Below, piece by piece: positions 720-50,817 of a stretch of 57,343 bases of DNA (positions within the stretch are counted from its first letter, which is position 1; the number at the start of each line of letters is the position of its first letter). The DNA is taken from NCBI GenBank assembly GCA_013001285.1, contig JABDMU010000074.1, forward strand, positions 1 through 57,343, given 5' to 3'. The DNA comes from Flavobacteriaceae bacterium. Lineage in GTDB: Bacteria > Bacteroidota > Bacteroidia > Flavobacteriales > Flavobacteriaceae. The position numbers were made by a program, and so were the translations under genes. The notes beneath the pieces are model-generated. The model was given only the letters and a program-made list of their open reading frames with translations. It was not told the origin of the DNA and made no database searches.

Positions 720-745
720 TGCAAAATTTATACCAACTTTTTTAT

Positions 746-1948
746 ATGAAGTTCGCCCTTATTAAAGAACGTAAAAACCCGCCAGATCGCCGTGTTGTGC
801 TTTCACCAGAAGCCTGTCAAAAGGTCATTTCAAAATTTCCAGACGCCGAAATTCTTGTAGAACCTTCAAACATTCGTGTTTTTAAAGACGAACATTATAT
901 AAAACTGGGATTGGATGTGCAAGAAGATATTTCAGATGCCGACGTGATGCTTGGTGTAAAAGAAGTACCTGTTGATGCACTCATTCCAAATAAAAAATAC
1001 TTTTTCTTTAGCCATACTATTAAAAAGCAACTCTATAATCGCAAATTACTCCAGGCCATGCTCACTAAAAATATCGATTTTTATGATCATGAAACCATCG
1101 TCAATTCTGAAGGTTTTCGCCTCATCGGTTTCGGATATTATGCTGGATTAGTTGGGGCCTATAATGGATTTCGAGCCCTAGGTTTGCGTGATGATCTTTT
1201 TGAATTGCCCAAAGTAGAGACCCTTGCAAATTTGGATGCCGTAAAGCTAGAGTTAGATAAAATTGAAATACCTAAGATGAATATCCTATTGTCAGGCACT
1301 GGTAAAGTTGCTCGTGGCGCAAAGGAGATCCTCGACCATTTAAAAATTAAGGAAGTCAACGACGCGCTTTACCTTACTTCAAATTTTAATGAGCCTGTTT
1401 ATTGTATTGTTGATGTCATGGAATACAACAAACGGATGGATGGACAGGTCGGTAATAAATATGAGTTTTATAAAGATCCTTCAGGCTATGAAAGTAATTT
1501 TATGCCTTATGCCAAGCAAACTGATATGTTTATAACAGGTCATTTTTATGGTACTGGTGCTCCCTATTTATTTACACGTGAAGATGCCAAACACCCTGAT
1601 TTTAAAATAAATTTAATTGCCGATATCAGTTGCGATATCGATGGACCCATAGCGTCGACGCTAAGAGCATCAACCATTGCCCACCCTTTTTACGGCTATG
1701 ATCCAAAAACCGAAAAAGAAGTCGCCTTTAATGCTCCAGGTGCTATTACTGTTATGGCTGTCGATAATTTGCCTTGTGAACTACCGGATAATGCAAGTCG
1801 CGGATTCGGATATATGTTTCTGGAACATGTTATTCCTGCTTTTTTTAATGGGGATAAAGATGGTGTTTTAGAACGTGCGAAGATCACTGAAAATGGCAAA
1901 CTGACAGAACGGTTCGCGTATTTACAAGATTATGTTGAAGGTAAATAA
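746..1948 (+). CDS. NAD(P)-dependent oxidoreductase, alanine dehydrogenase/PNT family (saccharopine dehydrogenase-like)
   Basis: The 400-residue protein begins MKFALIKERKNPPDRRV, the N-terminal signature of the AlaDH/PNT/saccharopine dehydrogenase (lysine-forming) superfamily. A nucleotide-binding loop with GTGKVARG sits near residue 182, so it should bind NAD(P). The substrate cannot be read from the sequence; saccharopine or another amino-acid-derived imine is plausible from family membership. The frame is open upstream to an ATG at 689, but a promoter at 688-719 and the conserved start of the family favour 746. It is cytoplasmic, monocistronic in appearance, and converges on the VOC gene with only 3 bp between stop codons. 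Confidence 0.8.
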   Translation: MKFALIKERKNPPDRRVVLSPEACQKVISKFPDAEILVEPSNIRVFKDEHYIKLGLDVQEDISDADVMLGVKEVPVDALIPNKKYFFFSHTIKKQLYNRKLLQAMLTKNIDFYDHETIVNSEGFRLIGFGYYAGLVGAYNGFRALGLRDDLFELPKVETLANLDAVKLELDKIEIPKMNILLSGTGKVARGAKEILDHLKIKEVNDALYLTSNFNEPVYCIVDVMEYNKRMDGQVGNKYEFYKDPSGYESNFMPYAKQTDMFITGHFYGTGAPYLFTREDAKHPDFKINLIADISCDIDGPIASTLRASTIAHPFYGYDPKTEKEVAFNAPGAITVMAVDNLPCELPDNASRGFGYMFLEHVIPAFFNGDKDGVLERAKITENGKLTERFAYLQDYVEGK

Positions 1949-35799: not shown

Positions 35800-36615
35800 T
35801 TAAACCGCAACATCATATTCCCTTAATGCATCATTAAGAGACGTTTTTTTATTGGTACTTTCTTTTCTTTTCCCAATGATCAATGCACAGGGTACATTAT
35901 AGTCTCCAGCAGGAAACTTCTTGCTATAACTGCCAGGAATAACCACAGACCTTCCAGGAACACGACCTTTCATTTCAACAGGCTGATCACCAGTAACATC
36001 AATGATCTTTGTAGATCCAGTTAACACTACATTTGCACCTAAAACGGCCTCGCTTTCAATCCGAACACCTTCAACAACAATTGATCTCGAACCAATAAAG
36101 GCATTATCTTCAATAATAACTGGTGCAGCTTGAAGAGGTTCTAAGACACCCCCAATACCAACACCGCCAGAAAGATGAACGTTTTTTCCTATTTGAGCAC
36201 AGCTACCTACAGTTGCCCAAGTATCTACCATCGTTCCTTCATCAACATAGGCGCCAATATTTACGTAACTTGGCATAAGAATGGTTCCTTTTGATATATA
36301 AGCACCATAGCGCGCTACAGCATGTGGAACAACCCGAATACCCCGCTCTGCATAATTTGTTTTTAAGGGGATTTTATCATGAAATTCCAATGCACCCACT
36401 TCGATAGTTTCCATTTTTTGAATCGGAAAATAAAGAACAACAGCTTTTTTTACCCATTCATTCACCTGCCAACCATCTTGAATAGGTTCGGCAACCCGTA
36501 GGTCGCCTAAGTCCAATAAGTCGATAACTTTTCGAATAGCTTGAATCACATGTGATTGCTTTAACAATTCTCGGTCATTCCATGCTAATTCAATGGTTTT
36601 TCTTAATTCGGTCAT
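35800..36615 (-). CDS. dapD: Tetrahydrodipicolinate N-succinyltransferase
   Basis: The enzyme succinylates L-2,3,4,5-tetrahydrodipicolinate in the diaminopimelate/lysine pathway, which also feeds peptidoglycan synthesis. The 271-residue protein has an N-terminal alpha domain and then a left-handed beta helix of hexapeptide repeats (VNIGAYVDEGTMVDTWATVG, IEDNAFIGSRSIVVEG, VLGANVVLTG), the normal length and order for DapD. A TATCTTTG -7 box on the minus strand (36639-36646) lies 23 bp upstream. It heads an operon with three envelope-glycan transferases. Confidence 0.95.
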   Translation of the reverse strand: MTELRKTIELAWNDRELLKQSHVIQAIRKVIDLLDLGDLRVAEPIQDGWQVNEWVKKAVVLYFPIQKMETIEVGALEFHDKIPLKTNYAERGIRVVPHAVARYGAYISKGTILMPSYVNIGAYVDEGTMVDTWATVGSCAQIGKNVHLSGGVGIGGVLEPLQAAPVIIEDNAFIGSRSIVVEGVRIESEAVLGANVVLTGSTKIIDVTGDQPVEMKGRVPGRSVVIPGSYSKKFPAGDYNVPCALIIGKRKESTNKKTSLNDALREYDVAV

Positions 36616-36638: not shown

Positions 36639-36646
36639 CAAAGATA
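36639..36646 (-). promoter_or_regulatory. -7 box of dapD operon
   Basis: On the minus strand TATCTTTG matches TAnnTTTG exactly, 23 bp before the dapD ATG. A good -33 partner was not found. Confidence 0.5.
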
Positions 36647-36700: not shown

Positions 36701-36726
36701 TGTGACCTTTTAATAATCTTTGTGTC
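36701..36726 (+). promoter_or_regulatory. Unit 1 bipartite motif TGTGAC-N14-TGTGTC
   Basis: TGTGACC starts at 36701 and TGTGTCTTAAT at 36721. It does not match the housekeeping TAnnTTTG promoter well. It may be an alternative promoter or a two-half-site operator. Confidence 0.55.
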
Positions 36727-36730
36727 TTAA

Positions 36731-36859
36731 TTGTAGATGTGCATAACATTAACCTTAGATTGATTGATATTTATATATGGAAGCCTACTTGATTTGATTG
36801 ATGGAAACGATTGATAGCTCCATTAAAAAACTCTCATTTTTAAAATGAGAGTTTTTTTT
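36731..36859 (+). ncRNA. Candidate small RNA, unit 1
   Basis: This is a predicted transcript of about 125 nt; the 5' end is only estimated, from the motif at 36701-36726. It includes ATAACATTAAC (36743-36753) and ATTGATAGCTC (36810-36820, shared with unit 2). It ends in a perfect 14-bp inverted repeat with T run. A 15-codon ATG frame at 36801 runs through the terminator stem, but it is not conserved with an ATG in the other units. Confidence 0.6.
36827..36859 (+). terminator. Terminator of unit 1
   Basis: AAAACTCTCATTTT (36827-36840) and AAAATGAGAGTTTT (36842-36855) form a hairpin followed by T residues to 36859. Confidence 0.85.
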
Positions 36860-36874
36860 GTTTTAATAATTTAT

Positions 36875-36900
36875 TGTGACCTTTTCAACAGTACTGTGTC
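36875..36900 (+). promoter_or_regulatory. Unit 2 bipartite motif TGTGAC-N14-TGTGTC
   Basis: TGTGACCTTTT starts at 36875 and TGTGTCTTAATAAT at 36895, with the same 20-bp step as in the other units. Confidence 0.55.
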
Positions 36901-36904
36901 TTAA

Positions 36905-37027
36905 TAATTGTTAAGCATAACATTAACCATAGACTAAAGCATTAGTTGAAAGGCTATTAGAGCGTATTGATAGCTCAATTAATAGTTTTAACTCAGAAAC
37001 TCTCTTATTCGTTTAAGAGAGTTTTTT
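36905..37027 (+). ncRNA. Candidate small RNA, unit 2
   Basis: This is a predicted transcript of about 120 nt (5' end estimated). It carries GCATAACATTAACC (36915-36928), identical to unit 1 and at the same distance from the second element. It also has ATTGATAGCTCAATTAA (from 36966), nearly identical to unit 1. It ends in an 11-bp hairpin. The frame around the shared segment lacks any ATG, GTG or TTG start, so conservation here is likely at RNA level. Confidence 0.6.
36997..37027 (+). terminator. Terminator of unit 2
   Basis: AAACTCTCTTA (36997-37007) pairs with TAAGAGAGTTT (37014-37024) around TTCGTT, followed by a T run. Confidence 0.85.
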
Positions 37028-37034
37028 GTTCATA

Positions 37035-37060
37035 TGTGACTAATAAATAATTTATGTGTC
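37035..37060 (+). promoter_or_regulatory. Unit 3 bipartite motif TGTGAC-N14-TGTGTC
   Basis: TGTGAC at 37035 and TGTGTC at 37055 keep the 20-bp step. The flanks differ most from the other units (TGTGACT rather than TGTGACC, and TCTAAAT rather than TCTTAAT). Confidence 0.5.
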
Positions 37061-37064
37061 TAAA

Positions 37065-37194
37065 TATATGAAGCCCTGCAGTACTGAGCTTTAAATGGAT
37101 CTTATTTGGATTAATAGCATTGTTCAAATTTAAACTCCTAAACTTTTTGTCCCAATTTAAAATGAACCCTCTCAGGTTATGGCAGAGGGTTTTT
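37065..37194 (+). ncRNA. Candidate small RNA, unit 3
   Basis: This is a predicted transcript of about 130 nt (5' end estimated) and the most divergent unit. It lacks ATAACATTAAC and instead begins with a GC-rich segment GAAGCCCTGCAGTACTGAGC near 37070-37089. It ends in an 8-bp hairpin with T run. It may be a diverged or specialised copy. Confidence 0.5.
37165..37194 (+). terminator. Terminator of unit 3
   Basis: AACCCTCT (37165-37172) pairs with AGAGGGTT (37184-37191), followed by TTTT. Confidence 0.75.
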
Positions 37195-37220
37195 CATTTC
37201 ATAAAAAAAATAATAAAAAT

Positions 37221-37246
37221 TGTGACCTATTTATTTTTCCTGTGTC
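37221..37246 (+). promoter_or_regulatory. Unit 4 bipartite motif TGTGAC-N14-TGTGTC
   Basis: TGTGACC starts at 37221 and TGTGTCTTAATAAT at 37241, with the same step and flanks as units 1 and 2. Confidence 0.55.
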
Positions 37247-37249
37247 TTA

Positions 37250-37407
37250 ATAATAGAATGTGAATAACATTAACTTATAATTGATTGAAATTATTTGGTT
37301 GGTTGGTAAGTTAGTTAGTTAAGAATGTTTATGAGGACAACTTAATTGCAATGGTTATAACTAACTTCCACTTGAGCTCTCTTGCGTTTGCAAGAGAGCT
37401 TTTTTTT
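37250..37407 (+). ncRNA. Candidate small RNA, unit 4
   Basis: This is a predicted transcript of about 155 nt (5' end estimated). It carries ATAACATTAAC (37264-37274). An internal 9-bp perfect stem joins AAGTTAGTT (37308-37316) and AACTAACTT (37359-37367), upstream of an 11-bp terminator hairpin. Its terminator T run borders the presumed -33 region of ruvX, so RNA 4 and ruvX expression may interfere. Confidence 0.6.
37375..37407 (+). terminator. Terminator of unit 4
   Basis: AGCTCTCTTGC (37375-37385) pairs perfectly with GCAAGAGAGCT (37390-37400) around GTTT, followed by seven or more T. Confidence 0.9.
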
Positions 37408-37424
37408 ATACTGGTTTTAAATAG

Positions 37425-37432
37425 TATTTTTG
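37425..37432 (+). promoter_or_regulatory. -7 box four nt before ruvX
   Basis: TATTTTTG matches TAnnTTTG exactly and is followed by CAGG and then the ATG at 37437. Transcription should start at or beside the start codon. Confidence 0.5.
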
Positions 37433-37436
37433 CAGG

Positions 37437-37847
37437 ATGGGAAGAATAGTAGCAATAGATTTTGGAGTTAAAAGGACTGGAATTGCTGTTACCGATGAAC
37501 TCCAGATCATTGCATCCGGATTGACAACGGTTAAAACCGCAGAGTTGATGACGTTTCTAAAGACTTATACAAGTAATGAATCAGTTGAACTATTCATAGT
37601 TGGATTACCGAAGCAGTTAAATAATGATCCTTCCGAAAGTGAGGCCTTGATCCTTCCGTTTATCGAAAGTCTTACACAAAACTTCCCAAATATCCCAATA
37701 GAACGCGTTGATGAGCGATTTACCTCTAAAATTGCCTTTCAAACAATGATAGATAGCGGTTTAAGTAAGAAAAAAAGACGCGATAAAGGCTTGATAGACG
37801 AAATTAGCGCGACCATTATTTTACAGAGCTATTTGTATTCCAAATAG
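37437..37847 (+). CDS. ruvX: Putative Holliday junction resolvase / pre-16S rRNA nuclease (YqgF family)
   Basis: The 136-residue protein is a single RNase H-like domain. It begins GRIVAIDFGVKRTGIAVTD with the first catalytic Asp (Asp7 region). It then has VELFIVGLPKQLNND, IPIERVDERFTSKIA with the second acidic pair and a C-terminal D-x-I-SATIILQ segment. YqgF proteins mature the 5' end of 16S rRNA and were earlier annotated as resolvases. The AGG between the -7 box and ATG is the only Shine-Dalgarno-like trace. The gene follows the small RNA array. Confidence 0.92.
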   Translation: MGRIVAIDFGVKRTGIAVTDELQIIASGLTTVKTAELMTFLKTYTSNESVELFIVGLPKQLNNDPSESEALILPFIESLTQNFPNIPIERVDERFTSKIAFQTMIDSGLSKKKRRDKGLIDEISATIILQSYLYSK

Positions 37848-37985: not shown

Positions 37986-38579
37986 ATGAAAAACAACTAC
38001 ACATTATTGTGGCTATTGTCACTTCTTTCATTTTCATTTATTGATGCACAAGTATGTCCTGAAACATTGGGTAATTCTTCGACGTCAACATTAGTTCATT
38101 TTAAAATTGTATCAAACTCATGCATTGATTATCCATCAACGATTTCAATAGCAGGAAGTACATTTGATAAATCGAGCTGTAATGGAACCAATCTAAAGTA
38201 TGAACTTTCAACTGGAGACCCTTTGTCTTCTGAAGACACTTTTTCTGTCGATTTCGGATCTGGAATGGTCTGTGATTATTTGAACGGTGAATTGCGAAGA
38301 GAAACACTTTCTATTGATCAATTTTCAAATGACGTAGAATCTGTTAAGGTATTTCCAAACCCTATAACAACAAACTCAGAATTGAATTTACATTTTAGTA
38401 CATCAATTAGTGCTAAAATATTTATTTATGACCTTATTGGTAAAGTTGTTTTAGATGATGAAATCTCCAATGATTCCACTAAACTTTTGAACGTTTCAAA
38501 CTTAAATAACGGTATATATATGTTGCAGATCGTAACAGATACTATGTCCACTACTAGAAAAATTGTGGTAATGAAATAA
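37986..38579 (+). CDS. Small T9SS type A sorting-domain protein
   Basis: The 197-residue protein has a signal peptide (MKNNYTLLWLLSLLSFSFIDA). A short Cys-containing beta-rich domain of about 95 residues has no recognised family. A type A C-terminal sorting domain begins at KVFPNP (121-126) and continues IFIYDLIGKVV ... GIYMLQIVT ... RKIVVMK. It should cross the outer membrane by the type IX system. Four or more Cys in the central domain may form disulfides. It sits alone, with a terminator just after its stop. Confidence 0.88.
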   Translation: MKNNYTLLWLLSLLSFSFIDAQVCPETLGNSSTSTLVHFKIVSNSCIDYPSTISIAGSTFDKSSCNGTNLKYELSTGDPLSSEDTFSVDFGSGMVCDYLNGELRRETLSIDQFSNDVESVKVFPNPITTNSELNLHFSTSISAKIFIYDLIGKVVLDDEISNDSTKLLNVSNLNNGIYMLQIVTDTMSTTRKIVVMK

Positions 38580-50263: not shown

Positions 50264-50817
50264 ATTTGTTAGCATTAGACCTAGTAGAACAATGTAAAAA
50301 CAATGATCGCAAAGCACAGCTGCAGCTGTATAATAAGTATTGTGATGGAATGTTTATTGTAGCCATGAGATTTCTTAAGGATACCATGGAGGCAGAGGAT
50401 GTTGTACAGGAGGCTTTTATAAAAGCATTTTTAAAACTTCATCAATTTCAAGGTGAGGTAACTTTTGGAGCTTGGTTAAAACGTATCGTAATCAATAAAT
50501 GTATCGATACCTTAAAATCGAAAAAACAGCATTTTGCTGAATTAGATGAGGTGCACCTCAAGGTGGTCGATACAGAATATGAGAACGAATGGTTAGTAGA
50601 TGATGCAATAACTATAGACGAAGTTAAAAATGCAATCAACAATTTACCAGACAAGTACAAATACGTCGTGATGTTGTATTTAATTGAAGGCTATGATCAT
50701 AAAGAAATATCTGAAATATTGAAAATTTCAGAAGTAGCATCAAGAACACAATTGTCACGAGGAAAATCAAAATTGAAGGAGGTATTAAAATTAGCACAGA
50801 ATGGCACAAGATCTTAA
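50260..50817 (+). CDS. ECF-type RNA polymerase sigma factor
   Basis: The 185-residue protein has sigma region 2 (YCDGMFIVAMRFLKDTMEAEDVVQEAFIKAF ... FGAWLKRIVINKCIDTLKSKK) and region 4 (LPDKYKYVVMLYLIEGYDHKEISEILKIS ... RTQLSRGKSKLKEVL). It should direct RNA polymerase to a specific promoter set. The start appears to be GTG at 50260, because the upstream ATG at 50237 terminates in another frame and no in-frame ATG is suitable. A TACC-TTTTTG sequence at 50197-50206 resembles an expanded -7 box. The putative anti-sigma gene overlaps its 3' end by 17 bp. Confidence 0.93.
   Translation: MNLLALDLVEQCKNNDRKAQLQLYNKYCDGMFIVAMRFLKDTMEAEDVVQEAFIKAFLKLHQFQGEVTFGAWLKRIVINKCIDTLKSKKQHFAELDEVHLKVVDTEYENEWLVDDAITIDEVKNAINNLPDKYKYVVMLYLIEGYDHKEISEILKISEVASRTQLSRGKSKLKEVLKLAQNGTRS

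Follow-up and report, generated by a model that had tools for sequence, protein, structure and literature searches.

Four predicted small RNA genes in tandem between dapD and ruvX as the probable RNA arm of an autoregulated ECF sigma regulon in a member of the Flavobacteriaceae

MicA, RybB and MicL are small RNAs (sRNAs) produced from the promoters of an envelope-stress ECF sigma factor, and they represent the repression arm of RpoE (PMC8103513). In Pseudomonas aeruginosa, the cfrX-cmpX genes are located beside sigX and depend on SigX, and their products are suspected regulators of this sigma factor (PMC7641640, PMC10965496); no SigX-driven sRNA is named in the accessible text of these two papers. 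Among Bacteroidota, multicopy sRNAs are represented by FopS/GibS of Bacteroides thetaiotaomicron, which repress SusC mRNAs near their start codons (PMC11697453), while SigP of Porphyromonas gingivalis is an ECF sigma factor with a defined regulon (PMC4800418). In Flavobacterium psychrophilum, the sRNA Rfp11 is listed among the genes with the predicted ECF-sigma promoter SM6 (PMC9723704). A tandem array of ECF-driven sRNA genes in Bacteroidota was not found in the accessible part of the open-access literature.

The window analysed here is a stretch of 57,343 nucleotides from a Flavobacteriaceae genome of 2.88 Mb. We suppose with good confidence, on the basis of comparative sequence analysis, that the four tandem sRNA genes predicted in its dapD-ruvX gap belong, as its RNA arm, to an autoregulated ECF regulon for envelope stress, a scheme similar to that of RpoE with MicA/RybB. 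The parts of this best explanation that are supported by comparison are the motif, its link to one sigma factor, the putative autoregulation, the terminators, the conserved place and the variable copy number; transcription, signal, pairing, targets and repression are the five steps that we infer.

The exact motif TGTGAC-N14-TGTGTC occurs at positions 36701, 36875, 37035 and 37221 of the plus strand, as the first-pass annotation of this DNA had claimed, with no fifth exact copy in the window and none in 100 dinucleotide shuffles of it. When three mismatches are tolerated, the motif does not stand out from the background (40 found versus 32 expected in the window), so it is the exactness that carries the signal. 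The whole genome has seven exact copies, four of which are in this gap. The names given earlier to the flanking genes were confirmed, since dapD (35800-36615, minus strand) matches NF008808 above the cut-off, with the dapD model TIGR00965 below its own, and ruvX (37437-37847, plus strand) matches TIGR00250 above the cut-off. The gene following ruvX (37986-38579, plus strand) encodes a protein with a T9SS sorting domain; in genome G076 (L129), the ECF motif is found about 55 nt upstream of the start of a similar protein.

In unit 1, the ECF-sigma-type promoter GTGAC-N15-GTGTC (36702-36726; exact motif, associated with the sigma factor described below) precedes a predicted sRNA of about 132 nt (36733-36864), which contains the 5' element ATAACATTAACCTTAGA and has its terminator at 36825-36857. 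The other three units, all on the plus strand and all with the exact motif as promoter, are arranged similarly: promoter 36876-36900 and a predicted sRNA of about 124 nt (36907-37030; terminator 36996-37025) in unit 2, promoter 37036-37060 and about 130 nt (37067-37196; terminator near 37165-37191) in unit 3, and promoter 37222-37246 and about 156 nt (37253-37408; terminator 37374-37401) in unit 4. These lengths rest on 5' ends deduced from the promoter positions. The earlier description of units that begin with the motif stands in that the motif heads each of them, but, as a promoter, the motif would precede the probable 5' end of the RNA and would not itself be the RNA start.

The terminator-like hairpins of units 1 and 4 came from a simple scan and those of units 2 and 3 only from a separate stem search; for all four, the score exceeds those of the 40 shuffles made from the respective stretch, in agreement with the claim that every unit has its own hairpin and T run. 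Their stems share CTCT/AGAG, as had been noticed, with the version CCCTCT/AGAGGG in unit 3. The sequence ATAACATTAAC said to recur at a fixed distance is indeed present in units 1, 2 and 4, its ACATTAAC portion being located 43–44 nt past the G of GTGAC. The longest start-to-stop reading across the four predicted transcripts has 17 codons, so the gap is rightly described as lacking a convincing ORF.

The fold z values of whole RNAs 1 to 4 are -2.6, -4.9, 0.4 and -4.9 (unit 4 computed on 150 nt). Bodies alone give 0.6, -2.3, 0.6 and -1.8, and therefore much of the fold signal belongs to the terminator. Unit 3, the body of which is unlike those of units 1, 2 and 4, shares little beyond the promoter and terminator, and its whole fold (z 0.4) is no better than that of shuffles. 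An overlap with the flavo-1 motif, which had been considered possible, was not confirmed: the Rfam search of the window gave only tmRNA above the gathering cut-off, outside the array, and the best score inside the array region was that of PyrR (29.4 versus a cut-off of 54 bits), so membership in flavo-1 or another Rfam family was rejected. The tmRNA gene occupies positions 126-520 of the minus strand (RF00023, 147.5 bits).

The most plausible interpretation of the motif is that of a promoter used by a single ECF sigma factor, the gene of which (P0001, C64:26355-26921) lies elsewhere in the genome than the array. Among the 18 Sigma70_r2 loci of the genome, scanned over 600 bp on each strand (L032 being cut by a contig end), only the ECF gene at L010 has a motif match of at least 10 letters out of 12. 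A second, different sigma gene is present in the window itself (50329-50526, plus strand; Sigma70_r2 in a 189-aa frame) and has no upstream motif.

Sigma orthologs (E up to 1e-30) were detected in 56 of the 149 genomes of the family. In the best 30 matches of these sigma-positive genomes, GTGAC-N14/15-GTGTC stands just upstream of the sigma gene at 29 loci (10/10 letters at 27 loci and 9/10 at two; a spacer of 15 in 28 of the 29 and of 14 in one), the sole exception being L077. Searched through all 149 genomes, GTGAC-N15-GTGTCTTA is found in 49 of the 56 sigma-positive and in none of the 93 sigma-negative ones (Fisher p 3e-32, relatedness ignored), with a total of 120 sites; the control pattern, read backwards, gave three matches in the same genomes. 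The sigma-positive genomes without a site are G014, G017, G084, G116, G133, G144 and G149. The 12-letter TGTGAC-N14-TGTGTC was found in 10 of 40 genomes, seven of which are sigma-positive; the other three have one site each, namely G024, which is sigma-negative, and two members of other families, G028 and G037. The motif both precedes the sigma gene and co-occurs with it, as expected for a promoter under autoregulation. Its spacer is T-rich and then A-rich (52 of the 120 sites were tabulated), as in other ECF promoters, and the AC-N17-GTC spacing fits the ECF promoter consensus. By comparative genomics, the units appear to possess the promoter that sRNAs of an ECF sigma regulon should have. 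This supports the initial proposal of tandem sRNA genes under shared control, the control being most likely a promoter that a single ECF sigma factor recognises.

In its composition (sigma factor, a protein of about 60 aa and a channel-type gene), the sigma operon resembles that of SigX. A 56–66-aa ORF (NPF...PLK.VP.ELK.KVM) is located downstream of the sigma gene in 29 of the 30 loci, and a 268–276-aa ORF comes next in 29 of 30, neither being seen at L060. The channel-type protein matches PF05552 (mechanosensitive-channel helix) above the cut-off in the source genome, the one genome in which this family was tested. Among the NCBIfam models, the sigma factor matches SigX (NF007222) best, with 107.2 bits, which is below the cut-off of 194, and the small protein has no match in Pfam or NCBIfam. 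At L010, this conserved protein (720-911, minus strand) is encoded between sigma and channel, overlapping or near the sigma stop codon, and may be a regulator of sigma. In both G152:C23 and G172:C17 (Algibacter), a pair of sigma matches is separated by no more than about 5 kb.

The other exact sites of the source genome precede a micro-ORF with a hairpin (L005), a DUF2059 protein (L006) and a thioredoxin-like protein (L007). Four sites have one mismatch; L008 precedes a DUF3078 protein and L010 an ECF sigma gene, while L009 and L011 were left out of further analysis. At L005 (C28, 68291-68316, minus strand) and at L240 (G005), the promoter precedes the micro-ORF MKHKV.P...RISKKKHY, which is common to two genera and partly repeated in the source genome. 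The survey of genes downstream of the motif covered 30 loci and reported those fitting the search pattern; the motif-preceded proteins include LysM-BON, M48 peptidase lipoprotein, DUF2853, DUF1508, DUF3078, DUF2059 and thioredoxin-like proteins, some of them with lipoprotein or signal-peptide-like starts. Such a set, taken with the channel operon, suggests an envelope or osmotic stress response.

Among the 56 sigma-positive genomes, we examined the dapD-ruvX gap of 27, the source genome included (G018, G099 and G135 of the thirty best sigma matches were left out), and in a sample of 20 out of 93 sigma-negative genomes, 17 of which had dapD and 16 could be parsed. Units are present in 13 of the 27 versus none of the 16 (Fisher p 0.0006). 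Their number is four in the source genome, three at L095, two each at L086, L087, L094 and L100, and one in seven genomes, where the unit lies directly before ruvX. The motif upstream of terminators therefore recurs in the same gap of other genera, where, as had been stated for the window, the bodies have diverged and the start motif and terminators are kept. Among the 14 sigma-positive genomes without a gap unit, one has a gap of 95 bp, and 13 (L088, L090, L091, L093, L096-L099, L101-L105) have instead a small ORF of the type MKTNFYILLxLLLSFSxGNAQ with a signal-peptide-like start. The regulon can therefore do without the array, as it does in 14 of 27 sigma-positive genomes.

In the named genomes, units were found at two of the best 80 dapD loci among the matches listed, both from Winogradskyella (L165, L173) and both in genomes that carry the sigma gene. 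This gene is present in 8 of 22 named genomes, namely in two Winogradskyella and in one each of Lacinutrix, Mariniflexile, Mangrovimonas, Algibacter, Allomuricauda and Maribacter, and no ortholog was found in the four Flavobacterium genomes searched. The assignment of the source genome to the Flavobacteriaceae is based on its dapD matches and on G042, a genome of this family in which the sigma match has the coordinates and score of that in Mangrovimonas spongiae. At least three noncoding promoter-terminator units stand before ruvX at L238 (G099), and single noncoding units occur at other places in G063 (L239) and G075 (L243).

The combined set of 25 units, picked by the presence of the motif, comprises 4 from the window, 18 from 12 other genera and 3 from the two Winogradskyella. 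The distance from motif to T run is 130–195 nt. In 24 of the 25 units, none of the 40 shuffles reaches the terminator score (that of L086_u2 is matched by 4 of 40), and a score of at least 20 is reached in 23 units versus 0.5% of all shuffles. Their own terminators and the lack of an ORF agree with what is expected for sRNAs of an ECF regulon. The 5' element AACATTAACCTTA (at most three mismatches) was detected in 9 of 25 units (shuffle mean 1.4, maximum 4), the 3' element TTAATAGCTAATT in 13 (mean 2.8, maximum 7) and a third word, TTAGAGGGTAAAT, in 5 (mean 1.1, maximum 5), which does not exceed the best shuffle; these counts are only descriptive because we selected the words once the units had been read. 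Two rough groups can be outlined: one, comprising units 1, 2 and 4 of the window and six others, carries AACATTAACCTTA-like letters at a distance of 42–45 nt from the beginning of the motif, and the other often carries TTAATAGCTAATT near the terminator. Unit 4 aligns along its full length with L095_u3 from another genus, and the 5' part of unit 1 is common to both, while no clear relative of unit 3 was found among the units aligned. The RNAalifold consensus for the two unit groups contains the terminator stem only. A small UAGC-loop hairpin spotted by eye at the 3' element was dropped, being broken in several units.

As lone units lie directly before ruvX in the one-unit genomes, one could regard them as leaders or attenuators of ruvX or dapD and not as free RNAs. 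This is scarcely credible because both genes have boxes of their own: TAnnTTTG, the -7 box of the primary sigma factor in flavobacteria (PMC9723704), is found between the last terminator and the ATG of ruvX in 15 of 15 loci, and its reverse complement on the dapD side likewise in 15 of 15. In the window, the probable sigma-A -7 boxes are TATTTTTG of ruvX (37425-37432, plus strand), beyond the last terminator, and TATCTTTG of the divergent dapD (36639-36646, minus strand). Up to four complete promoter-terminator units in tandem also speak against this role, and for ruvX the leader or attenuator was rejected. It is very unlikely, too, that the TGTG half-sites are a binding site of an activator and not a promoter core, which would make the units sRNAs of another regulator. 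TGTGAC and TGTGTC do resemble a direct repeat 20 bp apart, about two helical turns, and a TAnnTTTG box follows within 60 nt in 2 of 19 recognised sigma promoters. However, the motif tracks one ECF sigma gene over 149 genomes and precedes this gene itself, and the 80 nt scanned contained a TAnnTTTG box in only one of 25 units, which leaves the other 24 with no other visible core promoter; the spacing of the motif and its two-part spacer, moreover, fit ECF promoters as generally known.

That the units encode very small proteins is an extremely improbable alternative, which draws on the L005 site with its micro-ORF shared by a second genus and on L085_u1, readable for 36 codons from TTG. The longest readings differ among the 25 units, and no recurrent peptide was seen by reading them, except for that of unit 4 and L095_u3 (13 and 14 codons); this, with the 17-codon limit in units 1 to 4, argues against it. 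Micro-ORFs were rejected for the dapD-ruvX units and not for the L005 site. We give equally little weight to a decay scenario, in which the units are functionless remnants of a tandem-duplicated promoter-terminator cassette: a copy number from 0 to 4 and diverging bodies would suit it, but promoter and terminator are retained together while most of the intervening sequence changes (in units picked by the motif), unit 4 has its full-length counterpart in another genus, and two internal elements are kept across genera.

We thus return to the sRNA arm of an ECF regulon, for which the following sequence of events can be proposed. Each unit would be transcribed from its own promoter (-35 GTGAC, -10 GTGTC, 15 bp between them) by the ECF sigma factor P0001, which would also transcribe its own operon of sigma, the ~60-aa protein and the MscS-type channel. 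An envelope or osmotic signal may release the sigma factor, which would switch on protective genes directly and produce RNAs of ~125–155 nt, each stopped at its own terminator. These RNAs would pair with mRNAs, most likely those of outer-membrane or secreted proteins, and repress them, as MicA, RybB and MicL do for RpoE. As activation is all that a sigma factor can do, the task of repression would fall to the RNAs. The kept 5' element is the natural candidate for a seed because FopS represses SusC mRNAs through a 5' seed. A crude search with one 12-nt pattern revealed no enrichment: 37 near-complements of the 5' element in the source genome versus 68 matches for the reversed control; three of the 37 are the units' own other strand, and one of the 28 readable sites lies by a start codon. 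No match to Hfq and no RRM_1 protein were found in the source genome.

If this scheme is true, it represents a Bacteroidota counterpart of RpoE with MicA and RybB, built on a different sigma factor in a genome without detectable Hfq or RRM_1. Our analysis provides a promoter sequence, a named regulator gene and a list of candidate regulon genes, and Winogradskyella thalassocola DSM 15363 is a carrier of one such unit available from a strain collection. Ranging from a single copy in some genera to four in the source genome, the array offers a natural series for the duplication and divergence of sRNA genes under one promoter. A broader idea, which in our opinion has an even chance of being correct, is that an envelope-stress system of the SigX-small protein-MscS type in a Bacteroidota genome with no detectable Hfq possesses its own tandem, copy-number-variable sRNA array at a fixed place, where the copies keep the sigma promoter and the bodies evolve freely, breeding new specificities inside one ECF regulon.

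Compared with the known systems, the array shares with the RpoE sRNAs a predicted origin from ECF-sigma-type promoters and differs from them in its sequences, its sigma factor, its tandem copies and a genome without an Hfq match; MicA, RybB and MicL are not known to occur in tandem, and they depend on Hfq. As in the SigX-CfrX-CmpX system of Pseudomonas aeruginosa, an ECF sigma gene adjoins genes for a small protein and an MscS-type channel. However, cfrX-cmpX is upstream of sigX, whereas here the small ORF and the channel gene follow sigma, and CfrX has 84 aa versus 56–66 aa of our small protein, its putative counterpart.

Like FopS/GibS, as far as the accessible text describes them, the array would be a multicopy sRNA family of Bacteroidota in which a 5' stretch is conserved and a terminator is present. 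FopS has sigma-ABfr promoters, binds RbpB and is ~65–70 nt long, whereas the array units are longer and have an ECF-type motif; a sigma-A-type promoter was seen in only one of 25 units (TAnnTTTG in 80 nt), and no RRM_1 protein was found in the array genome. For SigP, the accessible text suggests an A/T-rich motif, unlike GTGAC-N15-GTGTC, and the targets described are T9SS genes (PMC4800418). SM6 of F. psychrophilum is described by a CGT box, T9SS genes and an ECF/anti-sigma pair, while the readable array-motif sites precede other genes; an ortholog of the sigma factor linked to the array is absent from all four Flavobacterium genomes searched, a sample that does not include F. psychrophilum itself. 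Compared by its description, Rfp11 of F. psychrophilum under an ECF-type promoter motif (PMC9723704) is the nearest known case to the dapD-ruvX array.
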